This document shows positions 2,302 through 21,820 of a stretch of 31,049 nt of DNA, one piece after another. Positions within the stretch are counted from its first letter, which is position 1; each line of letters starts with the position of its first letter. The DNA lies in IMG/VR virus record IMGVR_UViG_3300008050_000181, positions 1 through 31,049 of that record, one strand, 5' to 3'. A program made the position numbers and the translations under genes. The notes under the pieces are model-generated. The model saw only the letters and a list, made by a program, of their open reading frames with translations, was not told the origin of the DNA and searched no databases. The stretch is from a virus.

Positions 2302-2633
2302 CCGGTTAGCCTCGCAATCTGGGCGTTTATCGCTAACGCGGCGTCTTCGCCCTCGCGCACTATGACGGCGATCCCGCCTGCCGCCTGGACGTTGCGCGCC
2401 CATATGGTTTGCTCGCGGGTTATGGGCGTCCGTGCCCCTTTGATTTCGACGGACGTGAACACGGCAAGATCACCGATCATGGTCCAGCCGATGAAATCGC
2501 CCGATCCCTCGTTTAGCCCGTAGCGAATGAAGCGCCCGCGATCCGTGCGACACGCCCCGACGTTATTACGGAAGAGGGTGCAACGGTCTGCAAGCGCGAG
2601 GCGGACGATATTGGTGTAGGTTGCTTCGCTCAT
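2298..2633 (-). CDS. VRR-NUC domain nuclease
   Basis: A 111-residue single-domain protein. The PD-(D/E)xK nuclease core of the VRR-NUC family is visible: RYGLNEGSGDFIGW with the metal-binding Asp at 46, then SVEIKG with Glu 63 and Lys 65, a downstream Gln at 75 and a QAAGG segment at 83-87. Stand-alone VRR-NUC proteins of this size are common in phages and can act on branched or flapped DNA; the exact substrate here is unknown. ATGA overlaps join it to both neighbours, so it is translated as part of the replication operon. Confidence 0.85.
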   Translation of the reverse strand: MSEATYTNIVRLALADRCTLFRNNVGACRTDRGRFIRYGLNEGSGDFIGWTMIGDLAVFTSVEIKGARTPITREQTIWARNVQAAGGIAVIVREGEDAALAINAQIARLTG

Positions 2634-3034
2634 GCGCCCCCCTCGCTTGGTTTGTGTACTTCATCCCAGATTTGCTTTATTACACATTGGGGCAAAACTC
2701 TCATCGCTGCATCTATGAAGTTGTTCTCATATTTTATTCGATTTGCTTCGCGCTCTTTCTTTCCCAATTCGCTGGATTTGCGATGTAGGCTTTCCCTTAT
2801 TGCTTGTATTTTTTCGCGGTTAGCCATTGATTGTGTAAACCACTCAAAAGGTGCGTATTTACCTGTTTCGTGCCTTTGTTTTTTTGCTTTACTTAGCTGC
2901 TTCTTTATTCTGCGGGTCAACTCATCGCACCGCGAGATCAATTCTGTACATCCTTCGCGGTCTGTTATTTCTTCAATGTTGATTTGTGTAAGATCTCCGA
3001 TCAGCTTATCCCCAAGTAGTTTATTTGTCTTCAT
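2630..3034 (-). CDS. Hypothetical charged helical protein, AT-rich gene
   Basis: A 134-residue protein read from the ATG at 3034, which overlaps the stop of the small upstream gene (ATGA). The longer in-frame start is rejected because it would cover that gene. The protein is rich in Lys, Glu and Arg and looks mostly helical: a probable coiled coil runs over residues 20-100 (KKQLSKAKKQRHETGKY, REKIQAIRESLHRKSSELGK), and a short tail ends in VLPQCVIKQIWDEVHKP. I do not recognise a family. The base composition is obviously more AT-rich than its neighbours (long T/A runs across 2650-3030), which suggests later acquisition than the rest of the operon. Confidence 0.7.
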   Translation of the reverse strand: MKTNKLLGDKLIGDLTQINIEEITDREGCTELISRCDELTRRIKKQLSKAKKQRHETGKYAPFEWFTQSMANREKIQAIRESLHRKSSELGKKEREANRIKYENNFIDAAMRVLPQCVIKQIWDEVHKPSEGGA

Positions 3035-3156
3035 TCCTGTACGCTTCCGAAGAGTAAGGCCCACGCGTAGCGGTCCGCGTCGGGCCGTGCTAATCCGCCG
3101 TCGAACTCCATGATCGCGGCGCGTTCCGTCCATGTGTCGTGATCGTCCTGTGTCAT
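3031..3156 (-). CDS. Small phage protein with ERAAIMEFDGGL motif
   Basis: A 41-residue ORF starting at the ATG at 3156 and stopping at 3031. It is linked by ATGA overlaps on both sides, which is strong evidence for a real gene. The sequence contains WTERAAIMEFDGGLARPDA, then DRYAWALLFG. Similar 'ERAAI-x-E-x-DGGL-x-R' strings occur, as far as I recall, in small phage and replication-associated proteins, but I know no function. The motif may be a peptide that docks onto a replication partner; this is inference from its place between replication genes. Confidence 0.65.
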   Translation of the reverse strand: MTQDDHDTWTERAAIMEFDGGLARPDADRYAWALLFGSVQE

Positions 3157-14675: not shown

Positions 14676-16505
14676 TTATTCCTGTGTGATCGCCCGTGTG
14701 GCGGTGAATACGCCGCTGCTATCTACCTTAATGATCGGCGTCCATCGCCCGGTTACGCCGTGGAATATCTGAATATAGGTTGCGGTGCTGGTCGTGTGCG
14801 TAGGCCCGATCACCGGTAGATCTATAGCCACTTCGGAAAATACGAACGTCGCCGCCTCGATGGTGCCGCCTGATAGGTCCACCTTCGCGCGCCGGGTGCC
14901 GTTTACGTTGATATAAAATTCCGTACCGCTTACAACTTCGATAGGTGTATTTGTCCCGCTCGCGCTGTGCGCCACGTTAGCGAAATCGATCCCCGTCCAG
15001 AGGTCCGCACCGCTACCGAGCCGCCCCCGTAATGCCGTAGACGTACCAAATAGCTCCGTATCTCCTGCCTGCGTCCGTAGGCCCACGGTGTTGGTCGGAT
15101 CGTTGTAGTATGTCGCCTTGTCTAGCGTGGGCCGCTTCACCCGCTTATGGGTGCCCCCCGTAACGCCCATCCAGTTAGCCGCGATAGGATCTTGCGTATC
15201 GACGGTGAGTGTTGACACGGTTGATCCGGTGCTTTCGTCGGCGAGGTCGCTACTGTACGCCCGCGCGATCACCTTGACTACGGTGTCGTAGTCGTAGGGT
15301 CCAATCGTGACGCGGTTCGTGAGGCTAGAATGTGCAAGCCCGATGATCTGCATACTGGTATCGGCGGGCGTATCGGTTGCCGGGTCTGGTGTAGTGCCGT
15401 CCGTCGTGATATACAGCCGCCATGTGTCCGCCGGTGTCGCGTCTTCCGCGCCGGGGTAGGTTAATACCAGATCGCACTCGCCGCCCGGTTGCGCCGTGAA
15501 TGAATCCACAGTAGGATCGGTTATAGCGTCGGTTTCGTCCGCACCGCCCGCGCCGATTTCCCGCACCTCGCACAGGGTGTTGAAGGATTCGAGATTAAAC
15601 TGATTCCGCCGCCTTACTGCGTAGTGGTGCGTATTGCTGGTGCTAAGTGCATAGGTAAACGGCAAACTCGCCGAGGTCGCCGCCGCTGTGGCGAAGTTAG
15701 GATCCGCGCCCGTCGCTGCGTGTATCTCATAGCGCGCTAACGTCGCATCACCGATCCGGTAGTTCCCAACCAATGGATCGCTGTAGTTCGTGCCGCTGTA
15801 GGTATACGCGCAGGTGATCGTAGTTGTCGCTTCGTCATTCACTGCCGTTGCCGCGCCGATGGTGCGGTGTATCCATAGCGCGCGGGATTCGCCCGGCTCC
15901 AGGGTTGCCACCGCCGCACTAGTCGCCCATGATAAGCCGGTAGGTGCCGTCGTGTCGTCTGCTATGGTCTGCACCGTGCCGCCGCTCGGAGCCTCTAACG
16001 CTACCAGGATCGGCGATGCCGTAGTAATCGAAATGCTTGTAATGTCCTCGCTGCTGTGGTTGTGCAGGTAGATCACCGCGTAGTGATTGGATGCCGTCTG
16101 CGTTGCGTTGTCCATCCCAATAGCGCCATTCATTGGAGCGACTAGATCCAGCGTCATCGTGCCGCCAAGATCATCGGCGCTGTATACGCTGTCCCGGTAT
16201 ACCCGCGCCGCCTTCGTCGCGGTGCCACTCTCTAATAGCGCGCTCGTATTCGCCGCCACCGTTACCGCTGCGCCCCATGTGTCGCCGGGTGCCTTGAAGC
16301 GAAGCGCCGTTGTACTCGTAGCTTCAATAGTTGCCGCGCCTTCACCGCATGAGGGCGTGACGTGCTGCACGACCACAGGCCCAATCGGCGCGGATATGAT
16401 TGGTTCCAGCGGGTTAATACCTATATCGGAACGCCCGCCGCCTAGATGGGGCGTAGTCGCTTGGTAGTAGCCTAGCGCGTCGCTGTTGGTGTAGGAAGTC
16501 GCCAT
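14676..16505 (-). CDS. Large virion structural protein, tail/baseplate
   Basis: A 609-residue beta-rich protein. The N-terminal part (NPLEPIISAPIGPVVVQHV) begins like other phage structural proteins. The middle contains FN3/Ig-like strings (LVLTYPGAEDATPADTWRLY, FTYALSTSNTHHYAVRRR). The C-terminus has EFYINVNGTRRAKVDLSGG and THTTSTATYIQIFHGVTG. It follows the previous stop directly. It probably forms part of the tail tip or a fibre adaptor, from its position between tape measure and fibre. No specific family is recognised. Confidence 0.65.
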   Translation of the reverse strand: MATSYTNSDALGYYQATTPHLGGGRSDIGINPLEPIISAPIGPVVVQHVTPSCGEGAATIEATSTTALRFKAPGDTWGAAVTVAANTSALLESGTATKAARVYRDSVYSADDLGGTMTLDLVAPMNGAIGMDNATQTASNHYAVIYLHNHSSEDITSISITTASPILVALEAPSGGTVQTIADDTTAPTGLSWATSAAVATLEPGESRALWIHRTIGAATAVNDEATTTITCAYTYSGTNYSDPLVGNYRIGDATLARYEIHAATGADPNFATAAATSASLPFTYALSTSNTHHYAVRRRNQFNLESFNTLCEVREIGAGGADETDAITDPTVDSFTAQPGGECDLVLTYPGAEDATPADTWRLYITTDGTTPDPATDTPADTSMQIIGLAHSSLTNRVTIGPYDYDTVVKVIARAYSSDLADESTGSTVSTLTVDTQDPIAANWMGVTGGTHKRVKRPTLDKATYYNDPTNTVGLRTQAGDTELFGTSTALRGRLGSGADLWTGIDFANVAHSASGTNTPIEVVSGTEFYINVNGTRRAKVDLSGGTIEAATFVFSEVAIDLPVIGPTHTTSTATYIQIFHGVTGRWTPIIKVDSSGVFTATRAITQE

Positions 16506-17579: not shown

Positions 17580-18536
17580 TTATGCTTGATCGGTTAATAT
17601 GGGCGATATGTCCATATCAATCTCAACTGTGCCTGAAATCTGAAACTCTGAAACGCCGTTGCCTGCGAACGGTACGCTACTCTCTAGCACGTCGAATCCA
17701 TACGCCACGCCCGCCGCCGTTGTCGTGTTACAGTCTGGTTGCTCCATCTCAATAGTAATAACCTGATCGGTGCCCTGTGGCGATGTCCCGGTAGAATGTC
17801 CTACCGCCGAGGTAATGGTGAGATCTATGTCTTTGTTACACTCGTTTTTCGCGTCCACGTAATAGCGCCCACCCGTAACGTCGATCCCGTTGTCGTAAAC
17901 CGTGCAGTCTATCGTCTGGCTCTTCGTTTGCTGCGTCCGTGTACCGTAGAAGGTTCCGAAGGTTTGCCCTGATACGTAGCGCACGGTTCGCGCGTCGGCG
18001 AGGTCCGATCCCGATCCTTGGCCCGTCATCGCGCCCCATGCTAGATCGCGGGTGATTCCTGTGCCGTGGAATCGTTCATAAGCCCCGCCGCCTGATAGGA
18101 ATGTAGGATCGGTTATAGTTGCGTATAGAAGTAGATCAAGCGCGTCCTGCATAGCCTGCAAAAACTCTGTATCGTTCGGCTTCGTTATGTCGGTTGATAG
18201 ACTTCCACCTATCGCCGCCTCTACGCTCGCCACGGTGTAGGGGGTGCCGCCTGCCGTCGTGAATTCCACCGAATCAACGGCGCTTATGAGTGACACGATC
18301 CCCGCCCGCAGGCGTCCCATGTTTGTACAATAGTGGGGCATATGCAGGTTTTGAAACTCAGAGAATGAAACATGATCGCCCTGTGTCTCGTCTGCCTTGA
18401 TAAACTTCGTAGTACTAACGCGTACTGCGCTCTGTCTCTCGTTTAGTGCCCGTGCTAACTCGAAGAGTGCAACGCGATAATTCGACGGTTGCCCCGTCAT
18501 GCGTAGCCCCTGATAAATTGCGTTAGTCCAGCCCAT
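17580..18536 (-). CDS. Virion protein, tail-associated
   Basis: A 318-residue protein of unknown family starting at the ATG at 18536, three bases after the previous stop. The first half is helical and polar (VALFELARALNERQSAVRVS, FLQAMQDALDLLLYATI). The second half is beta-rich (QTKSQTIDCTVYDNGIDVTG, DLTITSAVGHSTGTS, VITIEMEQPDCNT). It lies in the distal-tail gene block after the tape measure, hence the structural call. Confidence 0.6.
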   Translation of the reverse strand: MGWTNAIYQGLRMTGQPSNYRVALFELARALNERQSAVRVSTTKFIKADETQGDHVSFSEFQNLHMPHYCTNMGRLRAGIVSLISAVDSVEFTTAGGTPYTVASVEAAIGGSLSTDITKPNDTEFLQAMQDALDLLLYATITDPTFLSGGGAYERFHGTGITRDLAWGAMTGQGSGSDLADARTVRYVSGQTFGTFYGTRTQQTKSQTIDCTVYDNGIDVTGGRYYVDAKNECNKDIDLTITSAVGHSTGTSPQGTDQVITIEMEQPDCNTTTAAGVAYGFDVLESSVPFAGNGVSEFQISGTVEIDMDISPILTDQA

Positions 18537-18539
18537 TAA

Positions 18540-18893
18540 TTACTCACAGAAATTGATCGCGTCCCAGCCGTCTTTGTCGGGATTCACTACGCAGACCATG
18601 CCCGCGTTAGCCCCCGCCGTCACGCGTCCAAGCATCGTCTCCGCCACGGTTGACGCGTCGGTTAGGCCCGCTTTGGTCGTAGCTGTTACCCAGCCCAGCC
18701 CGCCGCCACTGCCGCCACCTTTCGCGCCACGGTCGATCAATTCAATCGTGATCTGGTCCGCCGCGCGGCGTATGAAGATTCCCTTGCCCGCCTTAATGCT
18801 GCCTACGATCTTCTCGGAAACTTGCCGCAGCATCCCCGCCGTGATCGCTTGCCCCTTGCCGGGCGTCGTCAATTTCTGGGTCGGGTCGTTCAT
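18540..18893 (-). CDS. Hypothetical tail-module protein
   Basis: A 117-residue protein joined by ATGA to the preceding gene. The N-terminus (NDPTQKLTTPGKGQAITAGM) and a Gly-rich hinge (RGAKGGGSGGGLGW) separate a helical half from a small C-terminal domain (TKAGLTDASTVAETMLGRV, VCVVNPDKDGWDAINFCE). Short proteins with a Gly-rich linker here are usually virion adaptors. No family is recognised. Confidence 0.6.
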   Translation of the reverse strand: MNDPTQKLTTPGKGQAITAGMLRQVSEKIVGSIKAGKGIFIRRAADQITIELIDRGAKGGGSGGGLGWVTATTKAGLTDASTVAETMLGRVTAGANAGMVCVVNPDKDGWDAINFCE

Positions 18894-19693
18894 GTGTTAG
18901 GGAACAATATGTTGAAATCGCTGGTGCCGTACCAATCGAACGTCTTAATCCCGGTACCCTCTACGAGGTCTGGGGCGGGTTCCCCTGTGCGGGGGTCCGT
19001 ATACCAGATCACTTCGTCCCATCCGTCTACCTTATGCTGAAACTCGAAGGTGAACGCCCATTGCTTCGTCTGTCCGTAGCCCGCCGCCATATTCTCGAAG
19101 TCGCACCGCGTACACATCCAGTACCCCGGCTCACTACCCGCCCAGTAGGTGTTATTGTAGGTGCCTACGTAACCCCGGCTAACCGCGTCGGGGTAATCTA
19201 CATTTAAGGTGCCGGTTGCCGTGAGTGTCGTGGACGGGATTAAAACGCTAGCATTCGCGCCCTGTACGAATGTCTGATCGGCGTAGTCGCTATCTGGGTC
19301 TGTATCAGGCCATGTATGCGAGCATGACAACTGATTGCCGTATATGTCTTTCTGGGTGACGGTCTGGCCTAATGACGTACCGCCGCTGAATATAAACGTA
19401 GACTTAGAGCGTGCGACAGGTATATAGGAACATGTAACGATAGCCTGCGTGTTGCTATCCGGTGCCATGCGCGCCTTACGCCCGACGCAAATCAGGTTCG
19501 TATTTCCTGGTGCTGCGTCACCTGCCACAGGAAGGCCCGACGTACTGAGTGCGACGGTTAACCGGCGCGTGTCGCTCGTCGCGCTACTAATGCCGGTTAC
19601 TAAGAACTTACGCTCCAGGGCGTCGTGTACGCCCTCTGTCTCGTTAAGCTCGATTTCTTCGGCTTTGATGTCTGTAACGCTAACGGTTGCCAT
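18890..19693 (-). CDS. Tail protein, probable distal tail component
   Basis: A 267-residue beta-rich protein. The N-terminus is ATVSVTDIKAEEIELNETEG, with strands such as TRRLTVALSTSGLPV and STFIFSGGTSLGQTVT. A Cys pair is seen in WMCTRCDFENM. The C-terminus includes EFQHKVDGWDEVIWYTDPRT and KTFDWYGTSDFNILFP. It follows the tape measure gene by three bases, where distal tail/baseplate hub genes usually lie. The precise role is inferred from order. Confidence 0.6.
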   Translation of the reverse strand: MATVSVTDIKAEEIELNETEGVHDALERKFLVTGISSATSDTRRLTVALSTSGLPVAGDAAPGNTNLICVGRKARMAPDSNTQAIVTCSYIPVARSKSTFIFSGGTSLGQTVTQKDIYGNQLSCSHTWPDTDPDSDYADQTFVQGANASVLIPSTTLTATGTLNVDYPDAVSRGYVGTYNNTYWAGSEPGYWMCTRCDFENMAAGYGQTKQWAFTFEFQHKVDGWDEVIWYTDPRTGEPAPDLVEGTGIKTFDWYGTSDFNILFPNT

Positions 19694-19696
19694 AGT

Positions 19697-21163
19697 CTAC
19701 CCCGCCACCGCTACCGGTGCGCCGTTCGTGTTGTTTGCTATCTGCCGCAAGTAATTGGTCTGCTGCGATTGCTGATCGCGCGCCTGGAACGTTGGCCCGT
19801 TAAACGCCGTCAACGCCGCGCTACCACTGCCCGCCTTTGTCGTGGCGTTCGCGTGAATTGCGCCTTGTTTCTTAACTTCCTCAGTTATTAATTTTTCGTC
19901 ATCAAGTCGCCGTTTGCCGCTATCCTCTGCGGCGCGATCTTTCATCACAAATGCTTTGAATCTATCGCCTAATCTGCCCTTCTCTTCGCGCTTTCTCTGA
20001 ATCTTATCTATAGCCGCCTGCGCTGCGTCCGCGTCTTGTTGGAATTCTTTACGTATCCGATCAGGGTTTATCGACTCATCCTGGAAACCGCCCCGCTCAT
20101 CCAGTAGCCGCTTAAACTCTGCGCGCCGGTGTTCTGGGATACCTGCGAGCCGCTTATCTTCGCGCGCCTTCTTCGCTATCGCCTTGTCTTTATCAGTCGC
20201 TAAAAAGTCTACAATCCCGCCCGCCGTCTTCGCTTTCTTCGCTTGTTGCTCTGCTAGAAACTTTCGGATCTTGTGGTAAGTTATCAATATATCTTCAAGT
20301 TTATTTAGGAATGTTCCAGCTTTGTTTGTTGCGAAGGAAAACGCCTTATCTACCGCTTCCCCGACGCCACCTATTGCCTCAATCCACTTGAAGAACTTAT
20401 CGCTTAATTCATTAACAATGGGCGCGATCTTCGCTATGCTCTGCGTAAATGTGCCACTGATAACCTTTCCAAGGTCGGAAAATTTATCATTCATCGCCTC
20501 CACTGGCCCCGATTGCGCCGCCGTGAGACTTAGCCCGAAGAGTTTAGCCTGTCGCGTGGCGTCTGCTATCGCCTTCGCGCCGCCTTTAAACAATAACGTC
20601 AACGCCCCGCCGCCTTTGCCAAAGATTTCACGCGAGGCCGCGATCCTGTCACCCACGTCACCGATCCCCGCTATACCGTCGGCGATCTTCTGTAGTCGCT
20701 TTTCGGGGGAGAGGCGCGCCAACTCTTCGCCCGTGGTGCCTACCGCCTTCAACGCGTCAACCGCTACCGGGTCGCCCGCCTTCGCGTCGCTGATGGTCTC
20801 TAGCATCTTCTCTAGGCCCTTGTCTAGCTCTGATACTTCTACGCCCGCGTGGCCCGCCGCGATCCGTAGTCCTGCAAGGGTCCCCGTTGCGCCACTATTC
20901 CCCAACAATTTACGCGAGGATTTAGCGAGGTTGTCTACGCCGTCCGCCGCTTTCTTTAACCCGAAGAGTAGCCCGCCCGCGAGTAATGCGCTAAACGCCG
21001 CCGCCCGCCTAAACATAGATTGCATAGATGACGCGACACTAGCCCCGAATGCCCGCATACGCTTGCGGAACTTATAGGTACGTCGCTGCGCCTTATTCAT
21101 CGCTTGCATAAACCGCGAGGCGTTAGCGGTTAGCATTACGTTTAATTTACCTACGTTAGCCAC
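19697..21163 (-). CDS. Tape measure protein
   Basis: A 488-residue protein, the longest helix-rich product after the tail chaperones. It begins VGKLNVMLTANASRFMQAMN, then KAQRRTYKFRKRMRAFGASV, a standard tape measure N-terminus. A hydrophobic segment (AAAFSALLAGGLLFGLKKAA, about 53-72) follows, and further on AIADGIAGIGDVGDRI-type and long charged helices up to residue 440. The length suggests a short tail, around 70 nm by the usual 1.5 angstrom per residue rule. The GTG start at 21163 overlaps the T frame by 8 bases. Confidence 0.9.
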   Translation of the reverse strand: MANVGKLNVMLTANASRFMQAMNKAQRRTYKFRKRMRAFGASVASSMQSMFRRAAAFSALLAGGLLFGLKKAADGVDNLAKSSRKLLGNSGATGTLAGLRIAAGHAGVEVSELDKGLEKMLETISDAKAGDPVAVDALKAVGTTGEELARLSPEKRLQKIADGIAGIGDVGDRIAASREIFGKGGGALTLLFKGGAKAIADATRQAKLFGLSLTAAQSGPVEAMNDKFSDLGKVISGTFTQSIAKIAPIVNELSDKFFKWIEAIGGVGEAVDKAFSFATNKAGTFLNKLEDILITYHKIRKFLAEQQAKKAKTAGGIVDFLATDKDKAIAKKAREDKRLAGIPEHRRAEFKRLLDERGGFQDESINPDRIRKEFQQDADAAQAAIDKIQRKREEKGRLGDRFKAFVMKDRAAEDSGKRRLDDEKLITEEVKKQGAIHANATTKAGSGSAALTAFNGPTFQARDQQSQQTNYLRQIANNTNGAPVAVAG

Positions 21164-21449
21164 TGAATTGTGCCCCTGTGCTTGCTAGTAAAATCGCTTG
21201 CATTTCTGCCACTGTCTGCGGTTCCTTCGGGGTGAAATCTGGCATAAAATCCGAAGACTTTAACGCCTTCGCGGTGCCGCGCTGCATGTTATAGACGGTA
21301 CTCGCAACGATGCCCGCCCGAAGATCGGCGCGTTTCTCGCCCCACGGATCAAGCTCATAGAACGCGATCCAGTTCATTAGCTCGCGGGCGGTGATCGTCG
21401 CTTTCAACTCTTCAACGGTGCGCCCTAGATGCGGCGCTAGTAAAAACAT
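21156..21449 (-). CDS. Tail assembly chaperone T frame, made by -1 frameshift from G
   Basis: The T reading frame is 97 residues from its first ATG, but that ATG has no good Shine-Dalgarno. In the same frame the DNA is open back to the frameshift site at 21476 (adding LTSRPLWRF), so the natural product is a G-T fusion of about 221 residues. The sequence LGRTVEELKATITARELMNW, then IAFYELDPWGEKRADLR, resembles the minor tail protein T family. The GT fusion acts with G as a chaperone for the tape measure in lambda-like phages. Confidence 0.85.
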   Translation of the reverse strand: MFLLAPHLGRTVEELKATITARELMNWIAFYELDPWGEKRADLRAGIVASTVYNMQRGTAKALKSSDFMPDFTPKEPQTVAEMQAILLASTGAQFSG

Positions 21450-21450
21450 A

Positions 21451-21482
21451 AACCGCCATAACGGGCGGCTAGTTAGTTTTTT
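21451..21482 (-). promoter_or_regulatory. Programmed -1 ribosomal frameshift signal
   Basis: The heptamer A AAA AAC (21482-21476) is in the correct phase of the G frame and is directly followed by the stop TAA (21475-21473). Five to seven bases further a hairpin CCGCC-CGTTAT-GGCGG (21468-21453, extendable by a G-T and an A-T pair) is found. The -1 frame runs without a stop from the heptamer into the T frame. Confidence 0.9.
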
Positions 21483-21820
21483 TCCAGATCCTCGGATTCG
21501 TCCAGGGCGTTAAACAGTTGCCCCGCATCGTATATCCGATCTATAGCCTTCGCGCCCATTGCGGACACCTTGGAGACTTCCGAATCTTTGAAGAGTCGCG
21601 CGCCTTCTTCGTCGCTCAGAAACGCCGCTACCCAGTTCGCGCGGATCTTGGTTTCGTCGGCCTTACTGTCTAGCGCGTTCTGTGTCATCACTTGAAGGCG
21701 ATCATATTCGCCCGCCGTAATTTCGCGGATCATCACCTCGCCGCCCCATTCAGGAACGGCGAGGGTCTGAACGTCGCGCGCTACCCCAATCTCTAATATC
21801 TCGTCGCGGGTTAAGATCAT
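21473..21820 (-). CDS. Tail assembly chaperone G
   Basis: A 115-residue protein joined by ATGA to the tail tube gene. It has VPEWGGEVMIREITAGEYDR, a pattern of phage tail assembly chaperones, followed by a helical region (NWVAAFLSDEEGARLFKDSE) and an acidic tail (ALDESEDLEKN). Its last codons GAA AAA AAC and the stop TAA carry the slippery heptamer that leads to the GT product. Position between tail tube and tape measure is the classic one. Confidence 0.88.
   Translation of the reverse strand: MILTRDEILEIGVARDVQTLAVPEWGGEVMIREITAGEYDRLQVMTQNALDSKADETKIRANWVAAFLSDEEGARLFKDSEVSKVSAMGAKAIDRIYDAGQLFNALDESEDLEKN

Follow-up and report, generated by a model that had tools for sequence, protein, structure and literature searches.

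A candidate programmed -1 frameshift site linking the tail chaperone genes G and T of a lambda/HK97-like phage

Introduction

In bacteriophage lambda, the tail genes G and T are linked by a -1 ribosomal frameshift (Levin 1993; Xu 2004, 2013, 2014, as reviewed in PMC5009743). For lambda, that review puts the two products at about 30:1 and describes gpG and gpGT as binding the tape measure protein, with the T part recruiting the major tail protein (PMC5009743). In its account of synthetic constructs in E. coli, A_AAA_AAG is far shiftier than A_AAA_AAC (PMC5009743). For a cluster of tail assembly chaperones similar to that of HK97, reporter experiments gave about 7% frameshifting (PMC3711429).

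The heptamer A AAA AAC has been proposed as a tail-chaperone slippery site in several other phages. Extracts of the respective papers place it against the stop codon in Acinetobacter phage Loki (the motif recurs unchanged in IME_AB3; PMC5313236), and give it as the slippery site of phiCbK-like Caulobacter phages (PMC3556154) and of the haloarchaeal virus HCTV-2 (PMC5009743). As described in these extracts, all of the sites were, like the one reported here, proposed from sequence.

Here we examine the G-T junction in a virus record of 31,049 bases (IMGVR_UViG_3300008050_000181), analysed over its whole length and called the window below. An earlier note on this DNA had proposed a frameshift at the junction and took G/GT frameshifting to be established for lambda-type tails, which the description of the lambda G-T mechanism in PMC5009743 bears out. 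Judging from the sequence comparisons reported here, the site is almost certainly a programmed -1 ribosomal frameshift of the lambda/HK97-type tail-chaperone cassette. We infer that the slip occurs in this phage and at what rate, that the hairpin stimulates it, and what G and GT do. The site is a clear further example of a well-known arrangement and not a new kind of thing, and a stop-abutting A AAA AAC is not new, having already been published for other phages.

Results

On its minus strand the window has the genes for head and tail of a temperate, lambda/HK97-like phage (terminase, portal, protease, capsid, head completion, tail terminator, major tail protein, G, T and tape measure), and an integrase gene lies on the plus strand. 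The tail cassette, all on the minus strand, runs from the major tail protein gene (22197-21817) through G (21820-21473) and T (to 21156) to the tape measure gene (21163-19697). G and T thus sit downstream of the major tail protein gene and upstream of the tape measure gene, where this pair is expected. The gene directly upstream of G was identified as that of the major tail (tube) protein by matches to Pfam Phage_TTP_12 (E=1e-5, slightly under the cut-off) and phrog_158 (E=5e-8). Downstream of T, the 488-residue tape measure protein, whose GTG start overlaps the end of T, matches phrog_9483, tail length tape measure protein (E=1.8e-41).

G was assigned by a profile search to phrog_344, tail assembly chaperone (E=2e-18), and 29 of 68 G homologues match Pfam Phage_TAC_1. 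An AlphaFold2 model, built from the window protein and the loci of its relatives with two phage-collection loci left out, reached a pLDDT of 90.8. When this model was compared with the PDB by Foldseek, the sole significant match was the HK97 tail assembly chaperone 2OB9 (E=2.3e-4, probability 1.00, TM about 0.6). The same structure was the only PDB profile hit of G (E 0.09); sequence identity to it is about 20%. No sequence likeness between the window G and lambda gpG was found. By its modelled fold, G has its nearest counterparts in the HK97-type chaperones and not in lambda gpG as such. For T, the profile matches are PF06223, Minor tail protein T, above the curated cut-off (E=9e-19), and phrog_337 (E=1.8e-23). 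Searches of Rfam gave no match at the frameshift site, and NCBIfam held nothing relevant.

Across the junction the minus strand reads GAT CTG GAA AAA AAC TAA CTAGCCGCCCGTTATGGCGGTTTATG... (the earlier note gave no strand). The short product of G (21473..21820) has 115 residues and ends in ...LEKN, encoded by the final codons CTG GAA AAA AAC before TAA at 21475-21473. The slippery heptamer A AAA AAC lies at 21482-21476, phased as GAA|AAA|AAC in G and abutting the stop, as the earlier note had it. From the last base of the heptamer, the -1 frame reads LTSRPLWRFMFLLAPHLGRT... and stays open for 106 residues as far as the T stop at 21158-21156, so that the T domain spans 21156..21476 on the minus strand. 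The proposed fusion of about 221 residues is therefore borne out by computation (115 + 106 = 221).

The arrangement resembles that of lambda in its gene order (major tail protein, G, T, tape measure), in the -1 shift near the end of G, in a T without its own start, and in a T domain that falls in the family named after lambda T (PF06223). Unlike lambda, where the slippery heptamer is G GGA AAG, the window has A AAA AAC, which abuts the G stop and is followed by a predicted hairpin.

As a bare word AAAAAAC is not special in the window, where both strands together hold five copies against 2.2 expected; its phase, place and conservation are. Across 33 window genes with 7,884 codon positions in all, 13 heptamers of the form X_XXY_YYZ are in phase (0.165%); the A AAA AAC of G is the only one of the 13 that touches its stop.

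Conservation was assessed in related loci. Two smaller alignments, used as queries against viral contigs and bacterial genomes, returned 240 loci. Earlier queries of viral contigs had returned one locus when T alone was the query and two when G alone was, and a nine-sequence T alignment was too diverse to serve as a query. From the 240 loci, the earlier loci and the window, 237 loci carry both G and T by profile; dereplication left 145 representatives, which fall into 46 clusters at 50% T identity. A check for homologues with an independently started T and no conserved heptamer showed the reverse: all 237 loci have T in the -1 frame relative to G, and an in-phase X XXY YYZ heptamer stands at the junction in 225 of them (AAAAAAC in 146, GGGAAAC in 37, others in the rest). 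Elsewhere in G such heptamers are found in phase 41 times per 20,917 codon positions, or about 0.2%. AAAAAAC is the majority heptamer in 31 of the 46 clusters. In the related set, the deposited annotations of two Streptomyces phages, phiSASD1 (35/35.1) and Dubu (13/14), already join the pair into one CDS.

A strict X XXY YYZ heptamer is absent from twelve relatives, most of which have other candidates at the junction; L007, L011, L049, L104, L227, L232 and L250 are among the loci concerned. A non-strict candidate, gagga|TTTC, was seen in several loci, actinobacterial ones among them. In Cronobacter phage ENT39118 the junction candidate is GTGGAAAAG.

A separate T protein could in principle be made without any frameshift, by re-initiation at an ATG after termination of G. 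The first ATG of the T frame lies at 21449, 23 nt past the G stop, and the Pfam T domain begins beyond it, at residue 20 of the ORF that it would initiate. However, this ATG is preceded by TAGCCGCCCGTTATGGCGGTTT, in which we found no clear Shine-Dalgarno sequence. The conserved T domain opens upstream of it, at the first shifted codon (LxxRPxRRF), and the residues between the slip site and the ATG belong to the conserved domain (RPxRRF). In most relatives the residue at the position of the ATG is Y, L or some other. In the T frame, up to and including its first 12 codons, 131 of the 145 representatives have no ATG, and 100 of 145 have no ATG, GTG or TTG. Re-initiation would also leave the conservation of the heptamer without a reason. 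Independent initiation of T was rejected on this comparative evidence and is, in our estimate, very improbable; the earlier statement that T has no good start of its own agrees with these observations.

The fusion might also arise at the level of transcription, if RNA polymerase slipped on the A-run and an extra or missing A joined G and T with no ribosomal slip. With the GAA codon before it included, the site forms a run of eight A (GGAAAAAAAACT region), of a kind on which polymerase can slip. In relatives, however, heptamers that are not homopolymers, GGGAAAC and GGGTTTC among them, occupy this place in the same phase, which fits tandem tRNA slippage and not a polymerase that needs a homopolymer. 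Transcriptional slippage was likewise rejected on comparative evidence, and we rate it a shade less probable even than re-initiation.

Downstream of the heptamer, the window has a predicted hairpin at 21451..21470 on the minus strand, with a 7-bp stem (AGCCGCC/GGCGGTT) and a 6-nt loop (CGTTAT). The spacer after the heptamer is 5, 6 or 7 nt long, depending on whether the stem is counted from its A-U pair, its G.U pair or its first G-C pair, in line with the 5-7 bases given earlier. Against dinucleotide shuffles the hairpin scores z = -1.55, with 14 of 200 shuffles as good; against a synonymous-codon null, z is about -2.1 to -2.4 (p = 0.03-0.05). Taken by itself, at p 0.03-0.07 over the two nulls, the window hairpin is marginally to moderately beyond chance.

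The comparison of heptamer and hairpin among relatives that the earlier note had suggested was also run, with structure nulls that preserve the T protein and codon usage; beside the near-universal heptamer, it showed an excess of structure only in members whose stop is adjacent to the heptamer. In the 72 loci with the G stop at most 3 nt from the heptamer, there is more RNA structure downstream (mean z -1.07, p 6e-8), and the result holds for the means of 28 clusters of such relatives (p 6e-4). Stems of at least 6 bp number 22 in this group against 9.5 expected, and its downstream structure exceeds that of control segments taken from those genes (paired p 4e-4). Among the 73 relatives in which G runs on, typically by 36 nt, no excess of structure was found (mean z 0.02). 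Stems fall in differing registers in L006, L008, L014, L097, L147 and the window. On well-supported branches of the tree, the position of the G stop shifts at least 10 times. An independent-pairs tree test of hairpin against stop adjacency, which was underpowered, had 10 supported pairs (mean 3.6 for, 2.1 against) and was not significant, so the association is carried by the cluster means only. The hairpin is a probable stimulator of the frameshift, although not every cassette of this type needs a downstream structure.

Examples from the 145 representatives compared for hairpin and stop position are L006:768-800, L008:768-795, L147 and L018. In the run-on relatives, the stop is typically a TAG inside a CTAGC that codes for a conserved Leu-Ala of T.

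Discussion

By the proposed ribosomal frameshift, most ribosomes would end at the G stop and release the 115-residue chaperone, while a minority, with the hairpin ahead of them, would slip back one base at A AAA AAC. The tRNAs on AAA AAC would re-pair with AAA AAA, the G stop would be skipped, and the slipped ribosomes would go on in the -1 frame into T, making the 221-residue GT fusion. The slip rate is expected to be a few percent. Because A_AAA_AAC is weakly shifty in the E. coli constructs, a low rate would be expected, as GT needs; in the host of the phage, the rate on this heptamer could even be very low, although about 1 in 30 is enough for lambda. If lambda is a guide, the tape measure protein may be coated by G and the major tail protein recruited through the T portion of GT, with the G:GT ratio mattering for assembly and neither product remaining in the virion.

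The structure results in relatives also invite a broader and more tentative reading, which we consider unlikely on balance. The family may switch between two encodings, one with a stop-adjacent heptamer and a hairpin, and the other with G running on (typically 36 nt) and without a hairpin. If so, the stop in the next A site and the hairpin would act together in the first encoding, the second would arrive at the required balance of G and GT by some other route, and A AAA AAC, which ends in an Asn codon, would be the default -1 site of the family in bacteria.

Recognition of the frameshift puts right the annotation of two genes that automatic callers treat as separate, and the G/GT family gains a distant phage. 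The window is without close relatives, the best one being 45% identical. The comparative set indicates that frame and heptamer are kept almost universally, that hairpins accompany stop-adjacent sites, and that the commonest heptamer is A AAA AAC, a weak site in the E. coli constructs. The accepted picture of tail assembly is unchanged.

Two further features of the window concern regions outside the G-T junction. On the 3' side of the tape measure gene, the minus strand encodes three large proteins of 609, 318 and 267 residues (14676-16505, 17580-18536 and 18890-19693, respectively). None of the three has a PHROG match at E 0.001, and they probably represent an undescribed type of tail tip or fibre protein. 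Another heptamer, G GGG GGC, stands in phase one codon ahead of the stop of the minus-strand gene at 2630-3133. This gene shares an ATGA overlap with the next gene (2298-2633), and because the latter has its own ATG, we read the heptamer as probably a chance occurrence in GC-rich DNA.
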